A stretch of DNA of 64,000 bases from Gymnopilus junonius (lineage: Eukaryota; Basidiomycota; Agaricomycetes; Agaricales; Galerinaceae), in assembly GCA_015501075.1 (NCBI GenBank), contig JADNYJ010000144.1, positions 1 through 64,000 on the forward strand, given 5' to 3'. Shown in pieces: positions 41,101 through 62,288 of this stretch. Within the stretch, counting starts at the first letter, position 1; each line of letters starts with the position of its first letter. The translations under genes and the position numbers were made by a program. A model generated the notes under the pieces. It saw only the letters and a list, made by a program, of their open reading frames with translations, was not told the DNA's origin and did no database searches.

Positions 41101-41870
41101 TAATTTGGACATGCTGTAGCACTATCGTTTTCAACCCATTGCGACCTCTCTTGCTTTTATATTTTGTTGACACTCATTGACTTGCAATGCAGGTGAGATT
41201 CATCATATAGCCTTGAAATTTTTCAAATGCACTTTGTTCATCGGTCATCCAGATTTATTGAAATTCACGTCTTCGGTGCGTCATGCTTCTTTCTCTCCCA
41301 CAATATCTTTTTAACTTGTCTTCTTCTTTGAAACTTCTTAGTTCTAGTTCATGAAGTGTCGCGGTACTGGAATGGTGCTGGACCTCGACATGCACTAGCG
41401 AGATTGAAAGGGGTATGTGTACATATTCGTGATCATGATCTGTAGCTATTGTTCAAATAAAGAAGTCTGTGCATAGACGCTTATGTCCCCTGGGATAATA
41501 AACTCGACACAAACTCGACCTTGCTGGTCAGCTGGTGCTGGCAAGTCGGACATTACATACTTAGAAGGAGATTCAGCTGCTAGTAAATTATCAGTCGGTG
41601 GTTGGTGTTTGACTGATTCAAAGGCTGTCTGACTGCCCGAACATCCTTGGTACGTGCACCTTCTTTTCGGATCTTGTTCCTCATGAATTGATTACTTGAA
41701 TTTACGCCTATAAGTAGACCTCAATTTTGCCCTCATTTTCGTTGTCTCGCCCTTACCGGTTAGTCACTCAGTGAGCCTTTAATGTTCCTTTCTTAAGAGC
41801 CTTTGCTGACTGCACAATTTATAGATGCCTCAAACCACAACTTTCTCATCAAATCTCACCAAGCTCAGAT
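41101..41870. other. spacer and promoter of duplicated gene A
   Basis: From about 41600 the sequence matches 43495-43738, the region upstream of copy B. Both have a TATA-like CTATAAGT (about 41708 and 43594) roughly 145-165 bases before the ATG. Confidence 0.5.
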
Positions 41871-42531
41871 ATGGCCTCGCTCCCTGTATGTTGACCTTCC
41901 CTATATTCCCACTTACACTCTAACTTTTCTCCATTATCCCCATATGCAGATTCTTACCCCAGTCACCAACCCACCTTCCAACCTCCGATCCCCACCTCAA
42001 TCAGCCAACCCTCCCAATCCGCTCATCTTCAGGAACAACTCTGGGGACAATGTAACCATCTACAGGATCGACAGCAATGGCGCCCGCATCAATCCTGCCT
42101 CTGTCGCCAACAGAGCTACCAACACCATGTTCACTGACTCCAGGCACCACTGGGTCATTGTCTACCCTTCTGGTTTTGAGTGCGTGTATACGGCCCCGGT
42201 GGGTGCTGCGATGGTAGTCATTGAGCCGTATGTTCCTCTGGTTTCTGGTCAGGTTTATTATTTCTTCTCCTTTGGGAACGAGCTTCCGCTCTGCTCATGG
42301 GGTGATGCATCTGGTGGCAGCGGTATTGTGGGTATGGTTTGATTAGGTTCCTCTTCCTCACGCAGCTGGTTGCGCTAATGTTGTATCTTCTCTATAGCCA
42401 CCTGTTCCAATTATTCGGCCACTCCAACAGTTGCTCAGGTAAGTCACTTATTTCTTGCGTTTTTGATCAACCATAATGCTAACTACTTGTGGGTTATATA
42501 GTGGAAGGCCACGCATACCGGAAATGGGTGA
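41871..42531 (+). CDS. unknown agaric protein, duplicated copy A, possibly truncated
   Basis: Exons 41871-41885, 41950-42331, 42398-42438 and 42502-42531 give about 155 aa ending at TGA 42529. I do not recognise the family. Visible sequence is MASLPILTPVTNPPSNLRSP, then NPLIFRNNSGDNVTIYRIDS, HHWVIVYPSGFECVYTAPVG and QVYYFFSFGNELPLCSWGDA, strand-rich and without a signal peptide. Beyond the TGA the same frame continues YWYLSNTGGGVSITTTPFEW. After a further intron-like gap it reads RVPGSTQAVSSVGSIGADRS and NDPVKDSQCWRIAS, to about 42860. The original protein was therefore probably longer, and the TGA plus a phase clash near 42658 may mark decay. It may be a lectin-like beta protein; this is speculation. 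A 5' copy of the gene follows at 43739. Confidence 0.45.
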
Positions 42532-43738
42532 TGGACATTGTTGAACATGTGGTACCCAGCCTCGCATGGCTACTGGTACCTCTCCAATACCGGTGGAGGC
42601 GTCTCCATCACCACCACTCCATTCGAATGGGAGATCATTTCCGACCCAGTCAGAGGTCATAGGTGCATTCCCTTTCCCCCACACATTCTTCTTTCTACAG
42701 ACTCTTGAACTTCTGTGCTCAGAATCCGCGTTCCAGGATCAACTCAGGCTGTTAGCTCGGTAGGCAGCATTGGAGCTGATAGGAGCGGAAATGCCTACGT
42801 TCTTGTTAGTCTGCAAGGTAATGATCCTGTTAAGGATTCTCAGTGCTGGAGAATTGCATCTGGTAAGTTGCCACCTATTCGGTCTTCACACTTCATTCAT
42901 ACTCATGGATGACCCTTTATGAGCAGCCTAATCCAGGCCACGATCTGTATATCATTCTCAAGTTATGCTATGCTATAAAATCATTTGTGTTTTTAATTTT
43001 TTCATTTTTGATTGTCTTTCTCACCCATCCTGATGTTTTTAGTTCTCAAATTCCAACTAAAACTCAAGTGTGCTTTCTTGGACTTTCTTTGCTCATTCAA
43101 AACTTGTCTCTCTGCAATCAATATCATTGCTTCTTTTGAAATCGTACCATATGGACATACATAAAATGTATTCCAGAATTCATATATACATTGCAGGAAA
43201 TATCTTGAAGCCTGGGCATCGTCAATGTCAGTCCCTACCATCGCTTCCTCCAACCACACCTCAAGATAAAAGTAGGATTTAGCTGATACCCACAGCTTAG
43301 AGAATCAGATTTCTTGAAGGTCCCCTCGGTCCTCAGAGCGTTGTGCTTCTTTCTTAATCCTGCATCAAGAAGTATTGGGTACTGGAAGGGCACTAGACCT
43401 TGGAATAGGATGTTCGTAGACCTACTGTTCAAAAGGGATGAAATATGATGCCTGTGCATGGGTGAATGTGTACCCTGATGTACTAGATTTGAGAAGTTCC
43501 TGCTGATGTTTGACTGGTTCAGAGGTTATTTAACTGTCGGAAATTAACTTTCTGGATCTTGCTTCCTTGAGAATTGATGGATTAAATTTGCGCCTATAAG
43601 TAGACCCAAATTTCGACCTCTTTTTTGTTACATCATTCTTACTCCCCATTGCTCAGTATGCCATGTTCCTCTCTTGGGTCTTCACTCACAGCGCAGTTCA
43701 TAGATGCCTCAAAACCATACGCTCCCCGACTCTCCTAT
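42532..43738. other. decayed 3' part of copy A, then copy B promoter
   Basis: 42532-42860 still reads as coding sequence of copy A past its stop. 42870-43490 shows nothing recognisable. 43495-43738 duplicates the upstream region of copy A. Confidence 0.45.
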
Positions 43739-43966
43739 ATGGCTTCACTCCCTGTATGTAAATCTTGCCTATATTCCCAATCTCACATTAAATCCCATTT
43801 ATTGCTCATGTAGATTCTGACTCCAGTCATCAACCCATCCTCCAACCTCCGATCCCCACTGCAACTAGCAAAGCCACCTAATCCTCTCATCTTCAGGAAC
43901 AAATCTGGGAACTATGTGGCCCTCTACAGAATCAACAGTACCGGCGCCCGCCTCAACAGTGCCTCA
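43739..43966 (+). pseudogene. truncated duplicate, copy B
   Basis: Exon 43739-43753 (MASLP) and the block 43814-43966 parallel copy A: ILTPVINPSSNLRSP, NPLIFRNKSGNYVALYRINS, then TGARLNSASA. Homology stops abruptly at about 43966, in the middle of what is one long exon in copy A. It is a partial tandem duplicate that includes the promoter. Confidence 0.6.
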
Positions 43967-44608
43967 GCGAAAAAGGATATATTTTGTGGCATAGAATTCA
44001 GTCGAGAATCTAGATAGAAGGGAAGGAAGGAAAGTAAGTCAAGACAGAGTGGAAGAGGAAATGAGGGGACACGCACATGTAAGTGTCTCCCAATCTCAGG
44101 CTCCACCCGACATCGCCCTTTCATTGTGAAGAAATAAAATGAGATCATAGTTGTGATACACATGAGAAGGGCTCAAGTACTCAAGTACTCACCCGTAGCC
44201 CTTTGCCGGAGTCTTTACTAAGTGTCCATGATAATGGTGTGGACAGGATCACAGGCACTAGGAGGAAGAAAGTATGAGAATGAGAAAAGAAGAATAAGAA
44301 TGGAAGGCATTGATCTGGATGAACCTGAAGACCAATGAGAGCTGTAAAGGGTAGGAGTACCGAAAGCATCCATGACCTGAGAATTGGGAACATGAGTCAA
44401 GCTCGTGATGGAAGCGGACAGCGCAAACGTACCTCATCAACATCCTCCTTGTCTCCTGCATGCTCGCCAAATTATTCTATTCCTGCATCTCTCCAAATTT
44501 GTCACTTGGCTCTACCATGAGCACCTGTGAGGTTATCAACAATTGAACGTTGCAGCCCGACAGCAGCTGAGAGATGATGTAAGCATGATGGGCATGCTCT
44601 CAGTGAGA
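43967..44608. other. spacer to the Gypsy insertion
   Basis: There is no supported gene. The minus-strand frames here are hydrophobic shadows without starts in context. It ends at the GGAAC target duplication (44609-44613). Confidence 0.4.
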
Positions 44609-44613
44609 GGAAC

Positions 44614-44913
44614 TGTAATGATCCGGTCCAGTTCCCCATCCTGGCCTCACCGTCTCTTTCTTATAGTTAATCCTCTTAGTTATTCCTTTAACTCATCATG
44701 ACTCATATCCTGACTCACTCTCCTCGCTCTTTAGATATTCCTAGAAAACTTCCTAATCACATGACTATCTACCTCTGGTATATAAACTGTCCGTCGTAGC
44801 TAGTCCTCTTTCTTTTTACAATTTATTCCTTTTATCCAGTTCTTTCCCTGTGCAAAACTTCTCATGTGTCAAAACTTCCCCTTAGTCATCCAACTGAGGC
44901 CACTTTCATCACA
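44614..44913 (+). repeat. left (5') LTR
   Basis: It has TG...CA termini and is the direct repeat of 58782-59080. A TATA box (TATATAAA at about 44779) lies centrally, giving the expected U3-R layout. Most differences from the right LTR are CG to TG or CA in this copy. Confidence 0.9.
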
Positions 44914-45098
44914 TCTTTTGAACTTGCTTAACTTCTAAACTCTCGCCTTTGATGCCTCGGTACTATGGTCTGATCAACCCGAACATCTGACACTCAAGGT
45001 ACTCTACATTCGAACATCTCTTGCTTTGACATCGCATTGTCATCACCAAAAAAAGCTGAGTAATCCTTTTATTCAATCAATCTATCTCTCCGAAAAAA

Positions 45099-45669
45099 AT
45101 GGCTACTATGAGGACACCCCCTCCTAAGCGCCAGGGCATTGCTTCAGTTGTTGCGCATCCACGCTCAGCCAGCATGTCCCCGACCAGAGCAGAATTTTCT
45201 GCTGCTGAGAACCGGGCTCCTGGGAGCCTGAGATCCGACAGTGACACCCGCTTGTACAGCGATGTTCTTGCTTCGAGACCCACCACCCCCTTGCAGGACA
45301 AGGAGGTAGTAGATAAAGCGGACTGATTAGCTACCGGTTTCAAGAATAATAATAAGAAGGACGTACCTCCACATTTAGAACATAAGAAGAGTCTCTTTAC
45401 CGACTCTGACAATGAACAGGACCTGAATGACTGACCTGAGAGTGCACAGAAGTGGGTAACTGTGCAGTGAAAATGGCGATCCCTGCCCGAAAATGAACGT
45501 TTGGGATTAGCCAAAAATTTGTTCCTGCAGCCTCGAGAACTTACCGAGGAGCAAGATAACAAAGCTGAAATCATGAATCCTCTGACAACGAGGAAAAGAA
45601 ACCTGCTCACCGCAAGAAAGCTAAGAAAGCTAAGAAAGCTAAGAAGAGATGCAACAGTTCCATCTCTAG
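45099..45669 (+). pseudogene. gag N-terminal segment of the Gypsy element
   Basis: It starts MATMRTPPPKRQGIASVVAH about 185 bases after the LTR. Coding-like sequence runs through three in-frame TGA codons (after VVDKAD, after DNEQDLND and after WVTVQ) and one frame change to a Lys/Ala-rich stretch (KKPAHRKKAKKAKKAKKRCN), ending SSIS at the hAT insertion. The frame resumes on the other side of the element at 55749 (minus strand) with SKAEGPSKPKGKGIDPREFG, which is what an uninterrupted gag would read across the target site. The basic tract may bind nucleic acid. Confidence 0.65.
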
Positions 45670-48477
45670 TAGGGTTGCCGAAGTTCAGTTCTGAACTGAC
45701 AGTTCAAACCTGAACCGGCCGAACTGGACCGACAGTTCAGGTTCAGTTCTGTTGATAAGTTTAGGTAGTTTGTAGGTATGAAAAACGAAATAGATCGCTT
45801 TTATTGAACCCAACAAATATCCCTTGACTTGTGTAAGTTCTGGGGAGTGTAAGTATCAATGTCTTTTAATTAAGTTCGCTTTATGGGGTTTTACAATGGG
45901 TTGTAGGGGTTCTTTGGATAATGGATCGCTTTAATTGACTTCTGGCTTGGAAACTTTCTCTAAACTTGACTGATCTCTTCTTGAGATAAACTAGGCTCTG
46001 GCTATGCTTTTGAACTAAAAGACTTCGTACTTTTGTAGCTGAGTGACGCTCTGTCTACTCCCAACTACTCAACTAGGTCCTGACTTGAATAATAAGCCTT
46101 TGCTTAATCTATCTCTTATTTGAGCTCAATTCTAAGTTTGTCTGAAGCTTATCTCGCTTTTATATCAATCAATTGTCTTTCTATTATCTAGTTTAGAAGC
46201 CAGACGCTCGATTGTATTGCTACGACTCGAGGGTGCTGTCTGCTTGCTTTCTACACTAATTCTACTGGGTTTTTATACTATTTTACTGGGCATCTTGCTA
46301 AGCTAATTTGATAAGCGCTGTGTAATTAATTATCTCGTCATTAGTCCGATTCGGAGTGAGGGGAATTATGCCATTGGTTGGGCATATTCATCAAGTGCTG
46401 AATATTTATCTCATTGCCATATAAGGCATTTTATCGGATTAATATTCCTGCTGTTGCAATCGTGCAACTGCCGGTTCATTATAGCATCTTTAATATTTGT
46501 CTACCTCGCAGAGGATTTTGTCTACGTCCTCAGGGGCTTGCTAATGTGTCTAGGATAGGTGTATATTTATTAGTTCTATGAGGGAACGCGAGGGGACGAG
46601 CGTCCTTGCGTCGCGTCTTCATATTACCAAAAATAGCACCCGCTCCGACGTCGATCATTGTGGATTATTCCTTTTCCGGTTACATTCCTCCGGATGATAA
46701 AAATAGATTACACCGGCTTCGGGGTAATTGACTTGTTTGGGCTGTCGCTCCGCATGTCTATATCGGGTCAAAGGTCGTTCCCATTGTCTGTGCGTGTTTC
46801 CGCGCTCCCTTGGTAGTTATTTTAAATAAACTCGAGGCCCCTACTAGTGTGTAAGGACTGTAGTAATTCGCTTGTGTATCTTATAATAAATGATTAATGA
46901 TTACTAGGTGATCATAATCATTATATCTTTTGATATTAAGCTTTTAATGTTTAAATGTGGTTTTCTCGAGTATATTCGGGATGTTTAAGCTCGGGAAGGC
47001 TATCAACAACCTATATTAATTTATAGAGATGGTCGAAAATAATGGGGATGGCCTGTTTTCACACATAACCATGTAACAGTCTCATCACCATTCAGTCTGG
47101 CCGTGGGCTGAGTAGGTTCGGTTCTCAGTTCTCAAAATTTGAGATTTCTGAGAACCGGGTTCGAACCGGTTCGAACCGAACTTTTAGCCATGGATATTGC
47201 CAATTTTTGTAGCACCAAATGAAGCACGGAAAGTCGAAATATTGAGTGTTTTGCGAGTTGATGCCGCATTGATGTGATCCTAATTTGAGTCAGAGCTTAA
47301 AACGACCATCCATAGAACCTCTCACTCCATCACTACATCCACCTTCCATCCGTCACCCATCCACCTTTGTCTCCCTCTTTTCCTGTCACTCCACATTGTC
47401 CCTCCCTCAGATGAGGATGTGAGCTGGTACAGGCACATAAAGTACATCCAGAATGTGCTCGCATATCCATCGCAAGCACATTTTATCTTCCTATCCCTTT
47501 TCTGCCGAATTTACTGACCTTGCTTTTCTTTTCAGGTTGTTTTTGGCCAACCATTGAAGGATCGGGGGTGGAGATACAACAAGCAGGGACCCTTGAAGAG
47601 GGAGGCTGTCCACGTATGTCCACGTTCTTCTTTTTTTCACTTGAGAATGCACTAACAATGTCTTTTCTGTTTCATTTGACAGAAATGGCCATCTAGCTGG
47701 CCCGTCCTACCTCCCTCATTAACAAGAGCGAGTTGGAGGTAGAATCTGCTTGCACTGCCGCCGCTCTCGTCCCCACATCCACCACCACCTCCCTCGCATT
47801 GAAGAGTGAGCCAGAGGTGATGTGTCGGCCTCCCTCCTATGCTGCCGCCACCCTACCTCTCTGCTTTTTCACCTCACATGGCATTGAGCTCGGAGGATGG
47901 CCGCCCCCCTCCACCTTTTCGACTGCTGTTGGTCTGGCCCCACCACCCTCACCTTTGCTCAACCAGGTGAGCTCACATTCAACCATGGCACCCACCCAGG
48001 CCATTGCAACTGCACAGCATCATCGTGGACATGACCAGAAACCCACCGCGTTGGTGTAGGGGTCATTGCAACCCCACAATGTCTTTGGTCATTGTGGACA
48101 CTGCCACCACCCGCATCATTGTATCAAGTGCCCTTATGTCAATGCGGAACCCATTATGTCAGTGTAGGGGACATTGGGACCTCCACAACGTCATTGCAGT
48201 GGTGACCACTACCCAGTGACATTGTCTCGATTGCCCCCATCCTGTATATTTACTTCTTAGGCTGTTGTATTGACTTTTTAGACTAGAATATATACATTTT
48301 TCTTAAATCTTGCGGTTCACCAGTCCGAACTGCGAACTGGACAGAACCGAACTGGAAGAACTGGTTCTTGAAAGTTCAGTCCAGTTCCAGTTCAGTTCTG
48401 GCAAATTTTTAAAAGTTCAGTTCTCGGTTCTCGAAAATCTGTCGAGAACCGGACTGAACCGAACTTCGGCAACCCTA
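45670..48477 (+). mobile_element. hAT-like element copy 1, 2808 bases
   Basis: The termini are TAGGGTTGCCGAAGTTC on the left and, reverse-complemented, TAGGGTTGCCGAAGTTC on the right. They are related in pattern to the hAT ends at 39577. From about 47091 to the right end it is nearly identical, in reverse, to 55750-57136. Flanks are ATCTCTAG on the left and ATTCGGGA on the right, which do not match each other but match the reverse complements of the copy 2 flanks. It encodes no transposase; a Pro/Ser/Ala-rich frame at 47733-48059 is shared with copy 2 and unrecognised. Confidence 0.85.
45751..47090. mobile_element. about 1.34-kb insertion inside hAT copy 1
   Basis: Alignment with copy 2 breaks after TTCAGTTCTGTT (about 45753) and resumes at TTCAGTCTGG (47091). 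The inserted DNA is AT-rich and shows no long reading frame. It begins TGTTGATAAG if counted from 45750 and ends ATCACCA, so a solo LTR is possible. No matching direct repeat was found in the window and the target duplication is unclear. Confidence 0.5.
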
Positions 48478-50793
48478 ATTCGGGAGGTCACTCACTTTGT
48501 CAACACCAATAAGCTCTAAGTACAACGTAAGAGCATGTAAGTCAGAGATCTGGTCGTAAGGGAGCCAAGTTATGTCTCCTGCCCTCCAGCATATCTCAAA
48601 TATAGCCTCTCGGCCTGATCTGCTATGAGACAGTATTGCGTCAACTGCCCATTCACCATCGGCAGTTATTTCTGTCAGTAATTGAGATGCTAGACACCCG
48701 GGAAATAACCAGTCATCATTTGGTACATGTACGTGAAGCAATGATGCATGAAATACATCATGAATACCGCATCTCTTTAAGTCAGAGGGCAATTCTATCT
48801 GAAAAGAATGATTGCCAAAGTCTTTAATGATCTTGTAAGGGCCAATAAATTTGGGGATTAATTTACGAGCAAGTCCCTTCAGGAAGGTGATATTTTTAGT
48901 CGAGACATAAATGAGATCACCTTCTGTAAAAGGTTCGATCTGCCATTTTTGATTTGCATCACGAGTTTGCTTGACTCGAGCGGCGAGAATACTATCATGG
49001 GCTGCCATAATCGCAAGCTTTTTCTTAAGTGCAAAGTTTCTAATAGAAGGATATTCTTCTTTAGGTGCAGAGTCCCAAATCATAGCTCTAGGGAGTCTTC
49101 TGTTATTTAAGAAGAAAGGTGAGTATCCTGTACTCTCAGATCATGCAAAGTTAATTGCAAACTCAATACTAGGTAATTTAAACACCCAGTCATTCTGTTT
49201 ATTATTAACACACTGATGGAGCATCTGTGTGACCATTCGGTTAGCGCGCTCAGTGGACCCATCAGTTTGAGGATGATAAGCGCTTGACATTCGGAGGCGT
49301 GTTCCAAGTAATTTATGTAAGTGATTCCAGAATACACTCGTAAATAGAACGTCTCTATCACTTATGATATTACGAGGTAAGCCGTGAAGTCTAAATACTT
49401 CTGCAAACATTAACTCGGCAATCTGCCTTGCGTTATAATTAATTTGGCTTGGAATTAAATGAACCATTGTGGTAAGTAAGCAGATTATCACTGTAATGCA
49501 ATCATAAGTCCCATTACAATCACTTGACTCAGGAAGCGGTCCTATGAAGTCAATTGCAATTGATTCCCAAGGCTGTGTGGGAACTGGTAAGGGGTTTAAT
49601 AATCCATATGGCTTTTGATTATTTGGCTTGCTCATTCTGCAAGTAACACAGGTTTCACAGAACGCTTTAGTATCAGAGACCATGTCTTTCCACCAAACAT
49701 GGTCTCGAAGGTAAGCAAGTGTTTTACTCGGTCCTAGGTGTACAAGTAGGGAATGCACCTCAGAGATAACTATTTCTTGAGCACTTCGTCTATTAATTAG
49801 GACCTTAGGAACACATAGAAGGTTTTTTCTTCCTTCGTTAAGGTAAATAATTCCTTCAGTTACTTGAAAGTTTTTATAGTCTTTTGGTTTCTCCAGGATT
49901 TGTTTGAAGAACTTATCCTCAGAATATTTACTCTTAAATTCTTTAAGTAAGTCAATGCCTTCATTACTCGAAGATACGATATTGAGTAGACTATCATTGG
50001 TTGTACTCAGAAAGCTCACTTCTGGGACATAAGGTTCGTCTTCAGGTGAGTTTTCAACTGATTTTTCAATTATCAGATTAGTTGACTCTTCAACTATTGG
50101 ATTAGCTGTGTCCATAGTAGGCACTTCTTCAGGCATCTCTTTGTCAGCGGACACTTTTTTCGATTGACGTTTAGTGTCTTTCGTTTTTGGTGTGGTCTCC
50201 CCCCCTTCTATTCGTTTGCCATGGCGAATGGATGACTTAGCCATGGGTGCAGGTGCAGGCGGAGCTTTTTCCTTGGCTGCTGCAAGACGAGAGGATCGCT
50301 GAATAGATATGGCCATTGCCTCTGGACCTGTAATTACAGGGAGGTCTGAGATGGTGATGATCTTGTCATCATCAGTGACATCGTGGTAAGTGAATTTGCT
50401 TTGTGAGCGAACAGTTCCAGGTGAGTCATTGGAATAAATGCGGGACAACGCATCAGTGATGACATTTTCAGAACCTGGCATATACCTGACTTCAAAGTCA
50501 AAAACACCAATTTTTTCAATCCATCTGGCTTGATGGCCAGACAAGTTTTTCTGGTTCAGAAGGTAAATTAAACCTTTATGATCTGTAATCCAGAAAAAAT
50601 GAGCTCCCAACAGGAGTTCACGAAATCTCAGCATAGTTTCAACACCGGCAAGCATTTCTATTTCATGAACCGGGTAATTCTGCTGAGCAGAGTTCAATTT
50701 AGTGGAGTAAAATGCAGCAATTTTTGCAGTTTTCCACTCAGGTCCTTGGCTAATTAAGCCAGCAATACCTGTCTCACAACCATCCGTGACCAT
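48478..50793 (-). pseudogene. Gypsy RNase H and integrase region
   Basis: This is the pol C-terminal part inside the inverted block. RNase H: FYSTKLNSAQQNYPVHEIEM, ITDHKGLIYLLNQKNLSGHQ, RYMPGSENVITDALSR. Then the integrase zinc finger (H...H...CETCVTCRMS) and the catalytic core: AIDFIGPLPE, NIISDRDVLF and SAYHPQTDGSTERANR supply the D, D and E. The C-terminal IN domain reads FLKGLARKLIPKFIGPYKII and CGIHDVFHASLL, with an SH3-like fold and no clear chromodomain. One TGA at 49141-49143 interrupts INFA-SESTGYSPF, where CGA (Arg) is expected. The frame runs up to the hAT copy 1 junction (DKVSDLPN) and would continue in frame at 57201. Confidence 0.85.
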
Positions 50794-51760
50794 CCAAATA
50801 GGGTCTGCCCCAGGTAAGTAATTCAGAGCAACTCAACTATGATTGCGAGCATCATTTACTAACTGTTTTACCTCCTCGAAGGCTCTTTGCTCAGTATAAC
50901 CCCATTGAAAGGGAACGGTATCACCCGTCAGAGCACTAAGTACACCCATAGGTATATGGACATTAGGTACATCATCAGCTAAATATCCTATGGACCCCAG
51001 AAATCCACGTAGTAAATCCCTATTTGTAGGAGTTTTCCAGTTGACGACAGAGTCAACTTTGTTGGGATCCATCCAAATACCCTTATCATCAATAATGCGA
51101 CCTAAAAGGTGAATTTCCGGCTGCAAGATTTGAAGCTTTTTCATGCTAAGGTAAAGTCTTTCACATGCAAGAATATCCGTTACAATTTTGCAGTGCTCAA
51201 CATGTTCCTCCAGTGTATCTGAATAGATAACAATATCATCTAGGTACACATCCATCCACCTGCCAATATAAGCAGAGAATAGATGGTTCATTAGGGCCTG
51301 GTAAGTAGCAGGACCATTACAATCACCAAACTGACAATATTTCCATCAGGAGTTGTTACAGCAGAGCGGTCGACATGTTCGTCAATTATGCGTATCTGCT
51401 CAAACACCCCCTTCTGGTCCCAAACGGACCAAAAAGGTTTACTAGATGCCCTCCTGCACATGCCATCAATGTCTGGCAGAGGCGATGCTAATTTAACAGT
51501 ATTTTTATTCCATTCTCGCATATCAACAATAGTATTAATGCCAGGTGGACTTCCATCCTTACTTGGTTTAGCAATGAAAATCATTGGAACCGTGTTAACC
51601 ACCGAAGTTAGGTGCCAATGGCCCATTCGTAGGTATGCGTCACACTTTTCTTGCCACTGAGGCCTCAGCGCTTCAGGGCAATGAGACGCCCTGCAAGGAT
51701 AAGCCTTGGTCTCATCAATCAAGGGTATTTGATGATTAATTGCTCATAGCAGAGGTAATT
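50794..51760 (-). pseudogene. Gypsy reverse transcriptase region
   Basis: From the N-terminus: PLIDETKAYPCRASHCPEAL, GHWHLTSVVNTVPMIFIAKP, VDMREWNKNTVKLASPLPDI, FWSVWDQKGVFEQIRI. Then a one-base shift near 51340, and ALMNHLFSAYIGRWMDVYLD with the YxDD catalytic box (VYLDDIVIYSD), followed by the thumb/connection LLGRIIDDKGIWMDPNKVDS. Stops include a TGA before VALNYLPGADPIWMV and another before AINHQIPLIDE, both at expected CGA codons. This is Ty3/Gypsy-type RT, encoded on the minus strand because of the inversion. Confidence 0.85.
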
Positions 51761-51941
51761 CCATTTCCCAAATGTCTTTGCACAACAGCTCAGTATATTT
51801 TTGAAGCTCCTTCCGAGCAGCTTCTATGCTGTCTTCTATATCCACAGAGTGGGCAACTCGACGAGTGTCAACCCCAGTTTTAATAGGTAAGGAAACATCA
51901 CTTCCTACTATGACTCAGGCAGGGTTTAACCCAATACAGAC

Positions 51942-52334
51942 TCAGTGCTGCCAAATCCACGGTGTACCCAGGATCAAGTCATAGTTTGACAGATTAATGA
52001 TGTCAAAGGTACGTCTTTTGTCTATACCTTGATACTGAAAGTTACAGGTCGTCTGAGCATTTATCCGTGAACGAGAGCCCTGTACTGCCAATTGCAAGGT
52101 AAGTGGCTCTTTTAAATTATTCTGAGGAACCTTAAGCTGATCTGCCAAAGTGGTAGACATAAAATCACCCAAGGATCCTGAATCTATCAAGGCACGAGCA
52201 GGATTGCCATTAATATTCACCTTGACAATCAAGGGTTTCGGCAAGATATGACTTTTATCTTTTACAGATGCTGCATTCTGCTGAATAGTGGCATAATTAT
52301 TTCTGTTAATCTGAGTGGCAAACAGCTCGATCAC
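51942..52334 (-). pseudogene. Gypsy aspartic protease region
   Basis: The frame contains LIVKVNINGNPARALIDSGS, the D-S-G active-site motif of a retropepsin, preceded by the usual two hydrophobic strands, and YDLILGTPWIWQH, the second conserved strand and flap region (ILGxPW). It lies in the same frame as the RT region, as expected for a gag-pol polyprotein. Confidence 0.8.
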
Positions 52335-52427
52335 AGGATGGCATTTATGCGGAAGCAGAAATTCATTTGCGAAAGGTAAGTGGATGAATGTCGAAATTAT
52401 TTCTTCGCTAACATATTCACTTTTTTT

Positions 52428-53588
52428 TCATTCAGGATTAAACCATTTGTCTAGGCAGTCCTCATACCAGTCTCGAAGCTCAAAGTCTGGGTCTTCAAGG
52501 GCGCTTAAGTCAATTTCCACACTCCATGAGTGCAATGCATCATGAATTAGTACCTTCTGGGTACCTGGCTTAATTTTCTCAACAGAAAATCGGTTTATAT
52601 CTTCACCATCATCATAGGCTGGTAAGATAAATTTTAAACATTTTTCATCATAGGTATATGGAGCACCAGCTTCCAGATGGAGCTCAGTAGCTGCATGCAT
52701 AGCATCGTCAAAAGTGGTAATCTTGAAAGTTCTTCCTTCTAGCCAATCTTCAGCCACTAATTCTGGGGATTCTTCACCAGCAAATTGGGCCATTTGGTAT
52801 GCGTACCAAAGCCCAATAGAGAAATCAGGATTTCTAACTCAGTCAATATGAAGCCAAGTCTCCAATTCTCAGACACTATCATAGATACAAAGTATGTCAT
52901 TATCTTTACTTCGTCCCACCTCAAAGCGGTGGTGAAAATGATCTAACCAAGGTATTCGTGCCCCAGTGTCATCTGCAGGGTATGGTTGACAGCGTGTAAG
53001 TACCCTCACTGCATGCTCCGCGTAAATATCACCCATTTGCCAGGAGCAGTCATCAGGCTTGGGCGACACATCATCTACCAAGGTGAACACTTTATTCTTG
53101 TGATTTTTTATTTCACACTGAGTAAACATGTGTGGACTATTCGAACAGTGGCAGCAGGCAGCGCATTCATGCGGGGATGCATCTGTGACATCTGTGTCTG
53201 TGACACTACTATTGTCAGAGTCAGACCAGTCCGACTCATCCTCAGTGCTAAGCTCAGGGTTTTCATCATATTCCGACTCAGTATCACTCACAGCCTGTAA
53301 GTCAGGCATTTTCTCAGACTCAGAGCAAAGTTCATACTCAGATTCTGGGTCAAGATCCTCATCTAGATCCCACTCGCTGGCAGTGACACTACACATGTCA
53401 CTTTTGGAGTCACTAATGGATTCCAAATTGGGTGGTACATCTTCTGAACAAGAAGATGTCAACTCACTTAGTGGGTGACCATAGATCTGTGAGGCTCGAT
53501 ACTGAGCTTGTAGGCTACAAGTTTCATCGTAGATAGGCTGTATTACCCTTCTGTACCAACTTACTAAGTCGAAGTCAGGACTTTTCAA
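52428..53588 (-). pseudogene. acidic linker between gag and protease
   Basis: Two open stretches (52428-52793 and 52869-53588), separated by stops, encode a Ser/Asp/Glu-rich region (ESEYDENPELSTEDESDWSD) and a folded-looking part (FAGEESPELVAEDWLEGRTF, YEDCLDKWFNPE). A Cys/His group (HECAACCHCSNSPH) lies inside. Function is unknown; similar linkers of low conservation separate gag and protease in other basidiomycete Gypsy elements. Confidence 0.5.
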
Positions 53589-53855
53589 TAGTAAATTATT
53601 GATCTCAACTCGGATTTCAAGGTTGGCGTCTTCTATGACCTAAGTCGAAGACCCGTGGTCCTTGAGATGAACATAGAAGTGACCATCAGAGTCAAATGCT
53701 TCTGTTAAATTAGGATAATGGGTATTAATTCCATCTGTGAGCAGATTAGTTGCCACAATAGATAGAGGATCACCGATCCCACAACCTATATTTTTGGTAA
53801 AAGGTAATTTCCTCACCTTGCAGAGCTGCTTAGTATACCAATTTACAATGTCAAA

Positions 53856-55749
53856 TCAATGATTTTCAATGCTTGCCATTGGTAGAGGAAATTCCAATTT
53901 TGCACCAAGGTCCTTGACTATATAGTAAGGTCTGGCAGAATTAACATATTCTAGAACAAATCGCAGCCTGGGCACGAAAGTGTCCATTGGCTCATCTCCA
54001 GGGTAGGGTACCTGTTGCTCTAACAGATCTTCGATTACCATAAGGTAGCAATCACCTATGCTAGATCGGGGTAGCATGTAAGGCAGTTTTTTCCAGGAGG
54101 GTGTGATGTACCCAGATTCTGGTTCTTCATTTTCAAAGAAGATAGCACCCAAAGGTAAGCTATCTAAGACTTCTATGGGCTGGTCATCACTAGTTTCACT
54201 GGATTCATACTCAATGTTATTATTGGATAATCCCGGAGGTTTGGAGTTACCACCCTTAACCATATTTTTGGTAGGACAATTCCTCGAGAGGTGACCTGGT
54301 TCTCTGCAGCCGAAGCACAGTCCCTGTGCTAGCCTCTCATTTTTCTCTTTATCTGAGAGTCTTGGAGTGCTCCGCTGCTCGGTTTTCACATAGTCACGTC
54401 CCTGGTGAGCCCTATCATTATTCAGGTGGCTACCATTCTGTTGGTGATACTTTCTATTTTTATTAAAAGAATTATGTGGTAGTCCAGATCTGCTGGGTCC
54501 GCTACTAGAGAATCGAGATCTATTCTCGTTCTCACAACTCTTTGAATTATTTGAGTTCACTTTTGAGTTTCTATCTCGGTGGGGTGCATTGGAGTTATGC
54601 CCTCCATTCTGAGACAGATCTCCATGATTTAATAAAACTGTACCTTCACGGCGTTCATTATTTTTGCCATCACTGCATGAGACTTCAATTATGAGAGCCT
54701 TGGATAAAACTTCATCCCAGGTAGAGACCTCGGGATTTAATTCATAGCACCAAAGTGCCTCATGAAGACTTTGGTGAAGGCCATACCAAAATTTAATGAC
54801 CTTCTCATGCTTGTCTTTAATGCCAATTATTTCAAACAGTTGTTCCATTTCGTGAGCATATTGCTCAACTGTCTTACTATTTTGGTTAGCAGTGATTGAG
54901 TTTCTGATGCATCTGCATGCGATAATTCACTGGGAAACAATAATTGAATATTCCAGCGAGGAAGTCTTTTAAAGACCATTTCTTTTCCTTGCTAGCAACC
55001 TTGAGGTTGTAAAATTTGTATGCTTTTCCATCTAAGAAATGAGATAATACAATTATATGATCCCTTTTGGGAAGTCTCTTCGTGTAGTAGGTGGCTTCTT
55101 GAAGAAATCATTGGTAATCAGCTAATACAGGCTGACCATTATACTTAAATGGCTTAAAGTTACTTTTAGAGTCAAGTTTGTCATTATCACGATGGCTCTT
55201 TGACTTCTTTTTCTTTTTCGACTTTTTACTCGAAGAACTACTAGACGTTGAGTCACTACTTGACTCATCACTACTAGAGTTTGAGCTCGAAGATGATGAC
55301 GAAGATTCAGAGTTAGAGGACTCTGAATCTGATTCACTCTCAGAGCTCGAGGAAGACTCAGAGGGGTCCGTGCACTTGACGGAGACCTGTTGCTTAGGTG
55401 AGTCCACCCTTTCGGCTTCCTTAAGAGCCACTCCAAGAACACTCTTTGGGTAAATTTGAGCCGTAAGTCTCACTGTATCAGGTAAGACTTTACTTTTCAA
55501 GGTTGAATTCTTGGGATTGGCTGATCGATGATTGGCGCTTGATCCTTTAGCGGGTTGCTGTACTGCAGTGATATTTTTAGATTTATCACCGGAGCATTTC
55601 TTATTATGCTTGCTGTTTTGGAATGACACCAATGCCGCCTTCTGCAATTCAATATCAGCATCTATGCCCTTCAAGTCTAGGGTGCCAAATTCTCTGGGGT
55701 CTATCCCCTTTCCTTTGGGCTTGGATGGGCCCTCTGCTTTGCTAGAGAT
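53856..55749 (-). pseudogene. Gypsy gag with CCHC zinc knuckle
   Basis: This continues the gag begun at 45099. From 55749: SKAEGPSKPKGKGIDPREFG, then a Ser/Glu-rich tract and Lys cluster (about 55370-55170), and the capsid-like helical domain FLQEATYYTKRLPKRDHIIV ... WSLKDFLAGIFNYCFPVNYR ... VEQYAHEMEQLFEIIGIKDK. The zinc knuckle CFGCREPGHLSRNC (about 54275-54320) has the C-x2-C-x4-H-x4-C spacing of nucleocapsid domains. Damage: a TGA at 55108-55110 replaces the expected Trp after ADYQ, and there is a one-base shift near 54930. Confidence 0.75.
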
Positions 55750-57200
55750 TAGGGTTGCTGAAGTTCGGTTCAGTCCGGTTCTCGACAGATTTTCGAGAAC
55801 CGAGAACCGAACTTTTAAAAATTTGCCAGAACTGAACTGGAACTGGACTGAACTTTCAAGAACCAGTTCTTCCAGTTCGGTTCTGTCCAGTTCACAGTTC
55901 GGACTGGTGAACCGCAAGATTTAAGAAAAAATGTATATATTCTAGTCTAAAAAGTCAATACAACAGCCTAAGAAGTAAATATACAGGATGGGGGCAATCG
56001 AGACAATGTCACTGGGTAGTGGTCACCACTGCAATGACGTTGTGGAGGTCCCAATGTCCCCTACACTGACATAATGGGTTCCGCATTGACATAAGGGCAC
56101 TTGATACAATGATGCGGGGTGGTGGCAGTGTCCACAATGACCAAAGACATTGTGGGGTTGCAATGACCCCTACACCAACGCGGTGGGTTTCTGGTCATGT
56201 CCACGATGATGCTGTGCAGTTGCAATGGCCTGGGTGGGTGCCATGGTTGAATGTGAGCTCACCTGGTTGAGCAAAGGTGAGGGTGGTGGGGCCAGACCAA
56301 CAGCAGTCGAAAAGGTGGAGGGGGCGGCCATCCTCCGAGCTCAATGCCATGTGAGGTGAAAAAGCAGAGAGGTAGGGTGGCGGCAGCATAGGAGGGAGGC
56401 CGACACATCACCTCTGGCTCACTCTTCAATGCGAGGGAGGTGGTGGTGGATGTGGGGACGAGAGCGGCGGCAGTGCAAGCAGATTCTACCTCCAACTCGC
56501 TCTTGTTAATGAGGGAGGTAGGACGGGCCAGCTAGATGGCCATTTCTGTCAAATGAAACAGAAAAGACATTGTTAGTGCATTCTCAAGTGAAAAAAAGAA
56601 GAACGTGGACATACGTGGACAGCCTCCCTCTTCAAGGGTCCCTGCTTGTTGTATCTCCACCCCCCGATCCTTCAATGGTTGGCCAAAAACAACCTGAAAA
56701 GAAAAGCAAGGTCAGTAAATTCGGCAGAAAAGGGATAGGAAGATAAAATGTGCTTGCGATGGATATGCGAGCACATTCTGGATGTACTTTATGTGCCTGT
56801 ACCAGCTCACATCCTCATCTGAGGGAGGGACAATGTGGAGTGACAGGAAAAGAGGGAGACAAAGGTGGATGGGTGACGGATGGAAGGTGGATGTAGTGAT
56901 GGAGTGAGAGGTTCTATGGATGGTCGTTTTAAGCTCTGACTCAAATTAGGATCACATCAATGCGGCATCAACTCGCAAAACACTCAATATTTCGACTTTC
57001 CGTGCTTCATTTGGTGCTACAAAAATTGCAATATCCATGGCTAAAAGTTCGGTTCGAACCGGTTCGAACCCGGTTCTCAGAAATCTCAAATTTTGAGAAC
57101 TGAGAACCGAACCTACTCAGCCCACGGCCAGACTGAACGGAACTGAACCTGAACTGTCGGTCCAGTTCGGCCGGTTCAGAACTGAACTTCGGCAACCCTA
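55750..57200 (-). mobile_element. hAT-like element copy 2, 1451 bases
   Basis: The ends are TAGGGTTGCTGAAGTTC and, reverse-complemented on the right, TAGGGTTGCCGAAGTTC. It is an inverted, nearly identical copy of hAT copy 1 without the 1.34-kb insertion. Flanks are CTAGAGAT on the left and TCCCGAAT on the right. The shared Pro/Ser-rich frame lies at about 56195-56495 on the minus strand and is shorter here because of small indels. No transposase is present. Confidence 0.85.
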
Positions 57201-57292
57201 TCCCGAATGGGAAGGGAAAACCACCTACTGATGATCCTCAGGTATTTTTGGGATCTCTACTCTTCTTAGAAGACGACTTTAATTTTCATTAA
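57201..57292 (+). pseudogene. last codons of Gypsy pol
   Basis: The plus-strand frame NGKGKPPTDDPQVFLGSLLF, then LEDDFNFH and TAA at 57290-57292. It joins in frame to the minus-strand pol end (VDKVSDLPN at 48478) if the intervening segment is turned round and one copy of TCCCGAAT is counted. Confidence 0.65.
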
Positions 57293-57941
57293 GCCTTAAA
57301 CCTTAAGTACTGGTCTTATTTAAGATTTGTATCTAAGGCCTTATTAAGGCTTACATAAGGGTTGGTATGCATTCATGTGCACGGTTCATATTATTGTTGA
57401 CAATGCCAAATTCTGCTCTCTACCTTACCACCCAGTCCTGCTGAAGCATGCTTCCTGGCTGTGCATAATGATAATGCTGATGGTACAGCAGGACAGGGCA
57501 AACTAGTACCTATAGACCCTAGTATTCATCACCCGACCCCTCCAGCTCACCATCATCGGGAATTCTTTCCTCATCAGCCTCCTTGTTGGCAAGTAGCTCC
57601 ATCAACCTGGCCTCTTCTGTGTAAGCAGTTCATCTATGATCCCAGATGGGATGCCTTTTCCTCCTAGTAGTGAGAGTTGAATAAAATTTTGATTTATCAC
57701 ACCCAAGATCAGCTTTGATCACCGGCGCACTGCTCCATCACATAATATATTATTAGTCATACTTTCTAAGGCTTAACTAAGGGTTAGAATGACCTCAATG
57801 TGATACTAAGCCTTAGTCTTAACATCGATTTAAGTCTTAAACCTTATTAAGGGCTAACCCTTAGTTACAACACTGGACTTTATTCCTTCTATTCCCTCCC
57901 CACACTCGTCATCACTCCTTTTCCTACCTCATTCTATCACC
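57293..57941. repeat. TTAAGGCTTA-rich stretch
   Basis: Copies of AAGCCTTA and its complement cluster at 57285-57375 and 57765-57875, flanking about 390 bases of unique sequence. The layout suggests subterminal repeats of a small nested element, but the termini do not pair well enough to fix its ends. The frame at 57461-57667 is unrecognised. Confidence 0.35.
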
Positions 57942-58786
57942 ATGCCCAAGTCCACCTCCAAAAGTCAATCCTCTCATCATGACCCCATTTCCAGACCTTC
58001 CTCGGCATCCGCTTCCCCTGCTCCTCTTGTGGCAATTCCAGTCCCAGGCCTTACTCAGGCATCTCGCAACACCTATTACCTTTTGCTTCCCGATGAGCTG
58101 TACTTCTCACACCTGTCAAACATTATCACTCTTACGGCGCATCAGATCAGTGCTATTATTGCCTATGACAAATCTCTCCACCGTGCCTCCACCACTCAAC
58201 AGCAGAAGTTCGTCGAGTCCCACGGCAAAATCCTTCCCATGCCTGCCGGCTACCAAGAACTCGCCACTGTCTTTGACAAGGCAAATGCTGGCTTTGGACT
58301 TAGTGGAATTCGCCCCTCGCGCGCTGGCCTCTTCATTGCCCCAAAACCGCCTATCCTCGAGGACTTTGGCTTCACCAGGACCTCGGCATTGCTACCCCCG
58401 AGCCTATCACGGCTATATTGAGAGAAGACCACAAGAATAAAATTCTAGCCAATACCCTTGTGCGTATTACTCAAGCCAAGGAACGTCATATTATGGAACG
58501 GAAGGCGAAGCAGCTAATTAAAAGTGTCGATCAACTTTACGACATGAGCAGGCACTTCGAGGGACCATCTACCATCACTCCTGCTCCCTCTGCGCCTATC
58601 ACTCCCGCTGCTAGCCTCCGCCTCTTTCCACTCCTATTGCCGATGACCTGCTTCGACCTCCCGAAGACCTTAACTTCGACTCGATGGACTTTGACACCGA
58701 CGCTCCTCTCGAACCTTCTTCCAGCAAAGGCAAGACTTCCAAAAGCCGCAAATGATCTTCTTCGAAGACCAGGAGGGCGCATGTAA
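57942..58786 (+). pseudogene. accessory ORF between pol and the right LTR
   Basis: ATG 57942 gives a Ser/Pro-rich N-terminus (MPKSTSKSQSSHHDPISRPS), then a folded region (YYLLLPDELYFSHLSNIITL, SHGKILPMPAGYQELATVFD, GLSGIRPSRAGLFIAPKPPI). A one-base shift near 58378 separates EDFGFTR from DLGIATPEPITAILRED, NKILANTLVRITQAKERHIM and KQLIKSVDQLYDMSRHFEG, a helical and probably coiled-coil part, then a Pro-rich tail. It lies in the sense direction of the element, between pol and the polypurine tract. It has no signal peptide or membrane segment, so it is not env-like. I do not recognise it. Confidence 0.5.
58770..58781 (+). other. polypurine tract of the Gypsy element
   Basis: CAGGAGGGCGCA immediately precedes the TG of the right LTR. 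It is purine-rich and in the position of the plus-strand primer. The matching primer-binding site after the left LTR was not identified. Confidence 0.45.
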
Positions 58787-59080
58787 CGATCCGGTCCGGT
58801 TCCCCATCCCGGCCTCCGCCGTCTCTTCTTATAGTTAATCCTCTTAGTTATTCCTTTCTCATCATGACTCGTATCCTGACTCGCTCTCCTCGCTCTTTAG
58901 AATATTCCTAGAAAACTTCCTAATCACATGACTATCTACCTCTGGTATATAAACTGTCCGTCGTAGCTAGTCCTCTTTCTTTTTACAATTTATTCCTTTT
59001 ATCCAGTTCTTTCCCTGTGCGAAACTTCTCGTGTGTCGAAACTTCCCCTTAGTCATCCAACTGAGGCCGCTTTCGTCACA
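58782..59080 (+). repeat. right (3') LTR
   Basis: This is the direct repeat of 44614-44913, with TATATAAA at about 58947. It keeps CpG at sites where the left LTR has TpG or CpA. It is followed by the GGAAC target duplication. Confidence 0.9.
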
Positions 59081-59085
59081 GGAAC

Positions 59086-60785
59086 AGTGGTGCCAATGAC
59101 AATGACAATGGCAGCAGCAGCGACGGTGGTCGTGGCGCTATAGCTCGATGATGACGAAGTCTCTGGGGTATCGTCAACATCCCCATGTCCATCCCAAATC
59201 CCTGTCCCATCTCGACTCCGAATTGACGTCCTTCCCCATCTTTCCCCATCGACATCCATCGGCCTATCGAGATTGAAGAGGCCCTTCTTCATCCGTTCTT
59301 AACTTCTTCATCCGTTCCTCACTGCTCTCAGTCATCTCCAAGTATACAGGTATCCACACCCAACTCAGAGGCGCGCACTTGGCCCAAATAAATGAACATG
59401 TTTGCTGACTCCTCTAGACTCTAGATGCCCGTGATTTTTGCAAGCAAAGGCTGGTGGTGGCGGTGGTGAATGACGTGCTGACAGCTGGACAGTGGATGAT
59501 GGCTGAGCGGTGGTGCGAGGACGGTGGTGCGAGAGGAATGTGAGGACATATAGGCAGAACTTCGGGCATTTGTTAACGTGGCGCATACTGACAAGCAAGA
59601 GGCAGTATGTCTGAGAAAGTACTGGTCCTGATATTATCATTGATGTAGATACGAACGCCAATATGAGCGCATATATGTATTATACGTCAATCCTAAAGAG
59701 GATACGGATATCAGCAAGAGTGGAAAAGACAAAAGAGTTAGTGATGCACACCTACAGCCAGTCGTTGAGCTAAGAACGCAGCTGGCGCGACATGATGTTA
59801 GAGGGGACGACATTGTTGAGGGTGTCTCCGTAAAGTGGCTCTACTGTGAGCGCCTGTGAGTCGATGGTGGTCAGCTTGTGGAATGTCGAGGAGGAAGGGG
59901 AGGACAGCCGTGCGCAGAGATGGTGGCTGGGAGCTGAGTGTGACGAGTGACAGTACGCAGTATGCTGACTCTAAAACTTTTCTGACCCCCATCGTGATAA
60001 TCACCGACTGCTATTGCTAACCCTCTCATAACACAGTCTTCACTTGTGCAACTGTCAGCCCATAGTCTTCTTTTTCTCTTCGTGCTGTTCCCATCAATCA
60101 CTTCTCTGATTCCGACTCGGCTCTAAGTACTAAGTAGCTGCTCAACGGCCTTCTGGACTTGGATCGAAAGCCATTTGATAGAGATTAGGACATATCCATA
60201 CCCAGGTTTACAGTTAAAATCCGCATGATATTTCTTTCTAACTTTGTCTATCTGCCACGACTCTATTCGCAATCAGGATCTTAACAGGGCTTCAATTTCC
60301 TAGCACCGCCTACTTCATATACTTTGCTCTATTACACCTCTACATACACTATAACCGGCCCGACTCCAAAGTTTCAAATACCTGAGGGCGTCGCACGCGG
60401 CACTCGCGAGAATATCCACAAGGTCCACGCATAAGTTACCAGTGTATCCATATTATACGGACCGCAGCGTTGCTCAGGCTGCTACCCATCTCAGTCGATC
60501 TAAAGAGCGATGTTCTATCTTCCTATATACACTGGGCATTTCTAAGGCCGTCAATTTTACCTACATCACACTAGTGACTGAACAAGGTTATACATTTCTG
60601 TCGACGACAGATTTACGACCTCGTTCCTAGTGTCCACCCAACGATTGCGTTACCAGCTTACGGAGGCCCATCGAGAAAGAAAATTCAAGTACAGTGGCAG
60701 ACGTTATGGCATTTCAAAAAAAATACTACATGCCCAGTCCATAGTACAGCTTCTCCTCCCCTCCAGAACCACAAATATACTCCGA
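59086..60785. other. 1.7-kb spacer, nothing recognised
   Basis: Short frames on both strands are unsupported. Simple CA/GT-rich tracts occur near 59090-59130 and 59450-59530. Confidence 0.4.
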
Positions 60786-62288
60786 TCAGGCCCCCCCATC
60801 TTCCCAAATAACCCTCAGCCCGCTAACTACCTCCAAATATCTGCAGTCCCTCCGTTGACTTTTTCCAAGATCCAGAATAGGTACAGAAAGTCCGCGATCC
60901 TTCCTATACTCGTAAAATTTCAAAAGGGTTTCTCGGCATTCTTCGCTATTTATCGCAGGCTGCCCAAGTTCTATCCTTTTCAGATGGGGTAAAAGGGGCT
61001 TGGGATATGCGTCTTCCTCTTCTGTGAGGAACCCTACACCGCAAATGCTTGTATATAACTCCTCTACCCCCGACAGCGATCGCAGGAAGGGGACGACATC
61101 CAAAAATGGCCCCTCGTCTCGATATATCACCACTTTTAAATCAAGGAACCTGACCGTGGATAAGTCGCATTTCAAAAAAGGAGTGAACAGTATCGAATTA
61201 TCTCCCGTAAGCGGGAACTCCGTCACGAGTAAAACGCGGAAGTAAGGTGAAAGAGACGTAGACAGCGAGGGGGGAATGAATGGCAATCGCCTATCAGCCT
61301 CCCCGACTGCACAGGAGAATATGTTCGAGTTGAGGACAACGTCGAGTGCAGACACGTTCCAGATGGAAAAGTGGGACTGTGCATACTCTGCCAGGGTTTC
61401 CAACAGAACTGTGGCATCGGATGGGTCGGCGGGCTGGTTTATAGACGCTATCAAATGCAAGGTACAGTATGCAGCTGGCTTTATCCCTAGAGCAAGCGCC
61501 GCGGGGATCGGGAATTGACCGTGAAGATGGAGGTAGATAAGATGAGGGAGTACAATGGAATCTGGGTCTGGGAACGTGAATTTAGGATGTCCCTCAATCC
61601 CAACCAAACTGAGGTGCTCAAGACAGTGCATCTGCTTGATGAGGTTCATGGTTTCCAATATGGTCCCTTTGGGAGACGTCATCTCGAAAATGCGGATATG
61701 GTTTATCCACGGCCCCTGAAGGTTGAAATAGATGGGGGGTGTATATATTCCAAATCCTTTGAGCAATGGAGCATGTCGCGAAAAGAATACGTCAGGTTGG
61801 GAAAAGGGCTTAAAGGCGACCTCTTCAAAGTGGACATTGAACGATTCCAAAGAAGGCGCGGGGAGGAGGAATGAATTCGTGAATGACCACGGGGATTGTG
61901 ATAACTTGACCCGGATGTATAAGTTCTGGATCCTTGACCAGTTACTGCGGATGAGTGGGATAAAAAATTCACGGCTGAACTCATCGTCCTTGGGCACTGG
62001 TCACAGTATGGAGAGAGCCGCATTTCCTGTTCGCTTCACAATCTCTTCCCGTCCAACACTTCCAAGATCATGTAACCTCTGGAGTTGTAGAATCTGTCCC
62101 CAAATCGATGGCGACTCTAGAAGAAGGGTCCTCCAAGACCTACATACACGCGATGTGATGAGAGTGGTATCCAAGGCGGATTGTTCAGTCCGGGTTTGAG
62201 ACATTTGATGTAGGGCCAAATTGTATTCCAAGGGATGGAACATGTCTGCATTCATGGAGAAGATTAGCTGTAAGACATCGCCATCCAT
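60786..62288 (-). pseudogene. F-box/LRR-like gene with a single in-frame TGA
   Basis: One frame runs from ATG 62288 to 60786 (about 500 codons), interrupted only by a TGA at 62001-62003. The start is MDGDVLQLIFSMNADMF, an F-box, with TTLITSRVCRSWRTLLLESP and IWGQILQLQRLHDLG. After the TGA come FSREFFIPLIRSNWSRIQNL, SFLLPAPSLESFNVHFEE, then LRR-like sequence (LEHLSLVGIEGHPKF, VRFLDLKVVIY). The stop sits in NAALSIL-*-PVPKDDEFS. The plus-strand relative at 28975 reads YILGSVYVAKNF there, so GGA has become TGA. It is either a very young pseudogene, a sequence error or, less likely, a split or read-through gene. Predicted role: SCF substrate adaptor. Confidence 0.7.

Follow-up and report, generated by a model that had tools for sequence, protein, structure and literature searches.

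We begin by considering a Gypsy-type retrotransposon in the first 64,000 nucleotides (hereafter the window) of contig JADNYJ010000144.1 of Gymnopilus junonius (assembly GCA_015501075.1), which holds two hAT transposon copies in opposite orientation (copies 1 and 2, Table 1). The question that this locus raises is "how did a gag-pol segment of more than 7 kb come to lie against the sense of the long terminal repeats (LTRs) that enclose it?" An earlier note, made from the letters alone, had answered with one Gypsy insertion, two opposite hAT insertions and a recombination between them. We look for relatives of each piece in the whole assembly (58.0 Mb, 898 contigs), in which the window is the start of a contig of 102,879 bp (C51). 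From the sequence comparisons, it is likely that the segment was flipped by homologous recombination, that is, by a crossover between the two inverted hAT copies that exchanged their target duplications.

Exchanged target duplications

Neither hAT copy is flanked by a duplication of its own. The 8-mer to the left of copy 1, ATCTCTAG, returns as its reverse complement CTAGAGAT to the left of copy 2, while the 8-mer to the right of copy 2, TCCCGAAT, returns as its reverse complement ATTCGGGA to the right of copy 1, so that the target duplications are swapped between the two inverted copies. These two pairs, their positions and the lack of an own duplication at either copy had been claimed before, and the letters give exactly the same picture; they also bear out that the Gypsy LTR pair, with GGAAC on both outer sides, encloses the whole arrangement. 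The chance of two exact 8-mers at fixed positions is about 2e-10, assuming equal base frequencies. Compared with relatives of the element, all four hAT junctions are exact, with zero bases gained or lost.

The earlier note also held that turning the segment round restores gag and pol in frame. This is true locally, as the frames continue at both sites. In letters read by eye, all five relatives have S-S-V-S-S-K-A-E-G-P or S-S-I-S-S-K-A-E-G-P at the gag site. Four of five have V-S-D-L-P-S-G-K-G-N-P-P at the pol site, and the fifth (L004) has V-S-D-L-L-S-G-K-G-N-P-S. It is not true of pol as one long open reading frame (ORF): among ORFs of at least 180 amino acids, the inverted segment has ORFs of 202, 550, 239 and 330 amino acids and no single long one for pol.

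Uninverted relatives in the genome

The next question is "does the uninverted arrangement exist in other members of this family?" Uninverted members, which the earlier note had suggested looking for, are found in the same genome when the pieces of the element are compared one by one with its relatives, which are paralogous Gypsy elements. In all five relatives that span the gag site (L045, L046, L049, L050 and L052), the start of gag (44914-45669) runs directly into the segment's reversed end (to 55749), the two overlapping at the 8-mer. The leader and gag start are 92-94% identical to five relatives over their full length, and a sixth (L044), which matches only positions 1-672 of this piece, stops short of the site. 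Likewise, the segment's opposite end (from 48478) meets the end of pol (from 57201) in 5/5 relatives (L002-L006); the stretch is absent from L007. Each hAT site is thus a single unoccupied 8-mer in every relative that spans it, five at the gag site and five at the pol site. At the gag site this 8-mer is GTCTCTAG in three relatives, ATCTCCAG in one and the window's own ATCTCTAG in one; at the pol site it is TTCCGAGT in four and TTCTGAGT in one. The window's TCCCGAAT occurs at both hAT ends yet in none of the five relatives, which fits the duplication of one local sequence.

The orientation of the relatives agrees with this. On each of the six other contigs that yielded a close pol piece together with an LTR (C894, C212, C347, C585, C252 and C315), pol follows the sense of the LTRs, and C51 alone has it opposite. 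For two of these relatives (C212 and C894), a comparison over the full segment shows collinearity in the reversed direction, with their outer Gypsy pieces adjoining the segment at the 8-mers; about 460 bp (52365-52822) present in C894 are missing from C212. Since C212 and C585 have the same flanks and the same duplication, AATGC, they may be one insertion seen twice.

Two other origins of the arrangement were considered and rejected. An ancestral gag-pol orientation opposite to the LTRs, the case named beforehand as one that would speak against an inversion, is found on 0/6 of the other contigs having the pol piece and an LTR, a count made over close family members (more distant ones are 70-76% identical). 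An inverted duplication carrying its flanks along does not agree with the flanks of the two hAT copies, which differ from each other and are each single in the relatives.

The two hAT copies

We turn our attention to the hAT copies themselves. In the part that lies 3' of an element nested in copy 1, the two copies differ at only 4 of 1388 sites, all of them CpG transitions, and by five one-base length differences, four of which are in single-base runs. The seven aligned copies form 20 further pairs, which differ at 48-70 sites. Judged by this alignment, copies 1 and 2 are siblings, by far each other's nearest among the copies found, and the second therefore probably arose from the first by a local hop; in maize, frequent transposition of Ac to closely linked sites has been described (PMC8225341). 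Close to its 5' end, copy 2 is missing 19 bp present in copy 1 and in five other aligned copies (L011-L015). Both ends of the copies carry TAGGGTTGCCGAAG as a short terminal inverted repeat; in copy 2 one of the two ends departs from it by one base.

Gene conversion in the interior of the hAT copies was tried as a candidate and set aside. Three of the four substitutions between copies 1 and 2 fall in the last 144 alignment columns, against 159/1190 for the other pairs (binomial P about 0.009), a suggestive clustering, but one that rests on a post hoc cut-off and on four CpG transitions and is hence not relied on.

Seventeen loci were scanned for hAT ends. Two are the copies in the window, four have one end only, and the rest give nine other two-ended copies, each of which keeps its own 8-bp duplication (seven perfect, two with one mismatch). 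The family belongs to the hAT superfamily: on nine contigs (C867, C40, C59, C132, C801, C897, C307, C228 and C812) a Dimer_Tnp_hAT domain of the same strand precedes its 3' terminal piece by 112-207 bp. The domain search gave no Dimer_Tnp_hAT match within the two Gypsy-nested copies of the window, and the 5' end of a transposase-bearing relative was not found in the 2 kb of C801 in which it was looked for.

The nested element explains why copy 1 measures 2808 bp: it is a solo-LTR-like insert with at least 39 near-full-length matches in the genome, its own copy included (40 of 87 candidates scored), of which 24 others are 98-99% identical. Its 4-bp flanks, CTGT and CCAT, are both reachable by CpG decay from CCGT, the letters of copy 2 at that place. 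Twelve solo-LTR copies of about 1.34 kb, the window's own included, were checked for their 4-bp flanks. The flanks are identical in 4/12 copies versus 7/132 cross-pairings, and equal allowing transitions in 8/12 versus 25/132.

A probable crossover

Combining these pieces of information, a sequence of events can be proposed. The Gypsy element would have inserted first, duplicating GGAAC. One hAT element would then have inserted in gag (at ATCTCTAG) and another in pol (at TCCCGAAT), in opposite orientation, as the duplications and the unoccupied sites suggest. The second would probably be a local hop of the first, the alternative for their near-identity being a later gene conversion. A crossover somewhere in their roughly 1.4 kb of near-identity would have reversed the DNA in between, with nothing added, lost or left as a footprint, and each hAT copy would now be chimeric, joining an end of one original to an end of the other. 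Earlier or later than this flip, copy 1 would also have received the solo-LTR-like element. With so few differences, the two copies would be a good substrate for recombination, and inverted near-identical copies with exchanged duplications, and no footprint or loss, are the outcome that a crossover leaves. The order given in the earlier note is supported by the relatives and by a Gypsy-free copy of the locus (described below); the near-identity of the two hAT copies and the element nested in copy 1 go beyond what that note foresaw. What the sequences show directly is the present arrangement in this assembly, the unoccupied sites and the orientation of the relatives, and from these we infer the insertions and the recombination.

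Could the transposase have done the same? According to a study of maize Ac/Ds (PMC8225341), recombination inverts the inner duplications and leaves elements with usually non-identical flanks, while transposition using reversed ends makes new matching ones; the same argument from exchanged duplications has been used for a Galileo inversion, where the copies are also chimeric (PMC2775673). hAT elements are capable of such alternative transposition, by reversed ends or between sister chromatids, and the ends here are hAT ends. That reaction would make a matching duplication at the junctions, lose the fragment between the elements and start from copies in direct orientation (PMC8225341). Here the junctions have no new matching duplication; both original ones are exchanged, nothing is missing relative to the relatives, and the copies are in inverted orientation, all of which makes an inversion of the segment by alternative transposition very improbable. 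A simpler cut, in which the transposase released the segment at the inner end of each hAT copy and the freed DNA was joined again the other way round, would place the breakpoints at hAT ends as observed. Excision by a hAT transposase is expected to leave footprints, however, and four exact junctions without a base added or lost make this scarcely credible.

The assembly itself has to be weighed more carefully. In an artefact, the DNA would be uninverted, each hAT copy would have its own perfect duplication, and the segment would have been misjoined between near-identical inverted repeats. The hAT arms have long substitution-free stretches in common, a flip would yield the identical four junctions, and the other close hAT copies, 3-5% diverged, are easier to place than copies 1 and 2. 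We have a single assembly, and an assembler could yield exactly the same pattern at a near-identical inverted repeat. Four of the twelve solo-LTR copies have unmatched 4-bp flanks, which leaves room for recombination or misjoins at other places in the assembly. These points weigh against a crossover, as do two more: the unoccupied sites lie in paralogous elements and not in another allele of this insertion, and four differences in 1388 sites are too few markers to reveal chimeric copies. On the other hand, the window contains no N, repeats of similar length, mostly 98-99% identical, sit within contigs, the solo-LTR flanks match more often than the cross-pairings both with transitions allowed and as identical letters, and all nine other two-ended hAT copies keep their own duplication. 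The five one-base length differences between the arms also suggest copies that were read separately. Taken with this evidence, an artefact is unlikely, and the crossover between the hAT copies remains our preferred explanation.

A further possibility is that the near-identical inverted pair acts as a reversible switch, so that both gag-pol orientations coexist among nuclei of one organism and the retrotransposon is off in one of them. A hAT element hopping locally in opposite orientation would build such a pair, which would then keep recombining. We regard this as distinctly unlikely.

The Gypsy element and its locus

The coordinates of the features are collected in Table 1. The assignment to Gypsy (Ty3) follows from the LTR pair, TG...CA with a 5-bp duplication, and from the order of pol domains together with a gag zinc knuckle (E 2e-4), in a domain search that covered pol downstream of the reverse transcriptase region. 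One ORF of the inverted segment has RNase H followed by the integrase zinc-binding domain, and the next ORF has the Tf2-1-like SH3 domain.

Table 1. Coordinates in the window of the Gypsy element, the hAT copies and the exchanged 8-mers.
Feature	Coordinates	Strand	Basis
Left Gypsy target duplication GGAAC	44609..44613		flank letters
5' LTR of Gypsy	44614..44913	+	LTR comparison
Gypsy leader and N-terminal part of gag	44914..45669	+	LTR sense
gag-site 8-mer ATCTCTAG, left of hAT copy 1	45662..45669	+	letters; sites in relatives
hAT copy 1 (TAGGGTTGCCGAAG...CTTCGGCAACCCTA), 2808 bp including nested solo-LTR-like insert	45670..48477	+	end scan, alignment
Solo-LTR-like element (TGATAAG...CTCATCA), 1335 bp, inside hAT copy 1	45753..47087	+	genome matches, flanks
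pol-site 8-mer ATTCGGGA, right of hAT copy 1, inverted	48478..48485		letters; sites in relatives
Inverted segment, 7272 bp: remainder of gag, with zinc knuckle, and most of pol, with RNase H, integrase zinc-binding and Tf2-1-like SH3 domains	48478..55749	-	opposite to LTR sense
gag-site 8-mer CTAGAGAT, left of hAT copy 2, inverted	55742..55749		letters; sites in relatives
hAT copy 2, 1451 bp, opposite orientation	55750..57200	-	end scan, alignment
pol-site 8-mer TCCCGAAT, right of hAT copy 2	57201..57208	+	letters; sites in relatives
End of pol and 3' part of Gypsy	57201..58781	+	LTR sense
3' LTR of Gypsy	58782..59080	+	LTR comparison
Right Gypsy target duplication GGAAC	59081..59085		flank letters

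In the 3' part of the element there is an extra insertion (57281-57875), about 595 bp long and rich in TTAAG at its ends, absent from all five relatives that span it (L002-L006). The stretch from there to the 3' LTR (57876-58781) is 93-95% identical in Gypsy relatives, has an ATG near its start in the LTR sense, and is possibly a further gene of this Gypsy family.

All 11 substitutions between the 5' and the 3' LTR are CpG losses in the 5' LTR (5 CpG versus 16), so dating by LTR divergence was rejected and the divergence is not used as a clock. Among four other LTR pairs, two of which may be one insertion, the 3' LTR accounts for 19 of 21 CpG losses. Compared piece by piece, C51 shows more CpG losses than C894 in gag and two stretches of the segment, as many as C212 at the end of pol (15 and 15), and fewer than its relative in 57876-58781; this is neutral on the flip, neither for nor against it.

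A collinear second copy of the locus, without the Gypsy element, is found on another contig (C364, 12636-17542; L067 and L069) at about 89-97% identity. It matches 41908-44511 (90%) and 59758-61239 (96%) with only 31 bp between the two blocks, and therefore is without the Gypsy element and also some 770 bp around it, which were lost there or gained in C51. C364 may represent the other haplotype, or else a duplicated locus; with the common insertion flanks of C212 and C585, it suggests that the assembly could hold two haplotypes.

To the left of the Gypsy element, the window has a different hAT-type element (39577-41092) with TAGGGCTGCCAACCG at both ends, the duplication TGACTTAC on both sides and a Dimer_Tnp_hAT match at 40554-40685. 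It is absent from C364, where a single TGAGTTAC forms the empty counterpart of this intact duplication. Also to the left, two direct repeats (41677-42101 and 43563-43965), 75-81% identical and about 1.9 kb apart, have matches on C364 as well.

Discussion

The kind of event proposed here is already known, and the merit of this case lies in its small scale and in the completeness of its record. Three systems are comparable. The closest is the 2z3 inversion of Drosophila buzzatii by Galileo, of the P superfamily (PMC2775673), which as here has opposite copies at the breakpoints, exchanged duplications, a single unoccupied target site in the uninverted forms and elements nested in the breakpoint copies. 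It differs in being chromosomal, in its 7-bp duplications and in the demonstrated chimerism of its copies, whereas here we have 7.3 kb within one retrotransposon, hAT elements, 8-bp duplications and unoccupied sites in paralogues. The reversed-ends inversions of maize Ac/Ds (PMC8225341) have in common with this locus the hAT superfamily, the 8-bp duplications and the elements at the breakpoints, but they are made by a transposase reaction that gives new matching duplications, while here old ones are exchanged, as homologous recombination predicts. In Atlantic cod (PMC12368964), hAT-derived miniature elements (MITEs) lie at inversion breakpoints and, like the copies here, are without transposase and proposed substrates of ectopic recombination; those are large chromosomal inversions with tandem hAT-derived repeats, and the accessible text of that source reports no exchanged duplications. 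An inversion within one retrotransposon by nested hAT copies was not met among the literature titles and abstract openings listed, which is no proof of absence.

Since this Gypsy copy bears several further kinds of damage, the biological effect of the inversion is probably small. Paired hAT copies are also a warning, in that they can resemble assembly errors or be such errors. If the crossover is true, the locus would document recombination between DNA transposons on a small scale and with unusual completeness, through exact exchanged duplications, unoccupied sites and, elsewhere in the assembly, a Gypsy-free counterpart, and it would open the question of how often paired hAT copies invert the DNA that lies between them.

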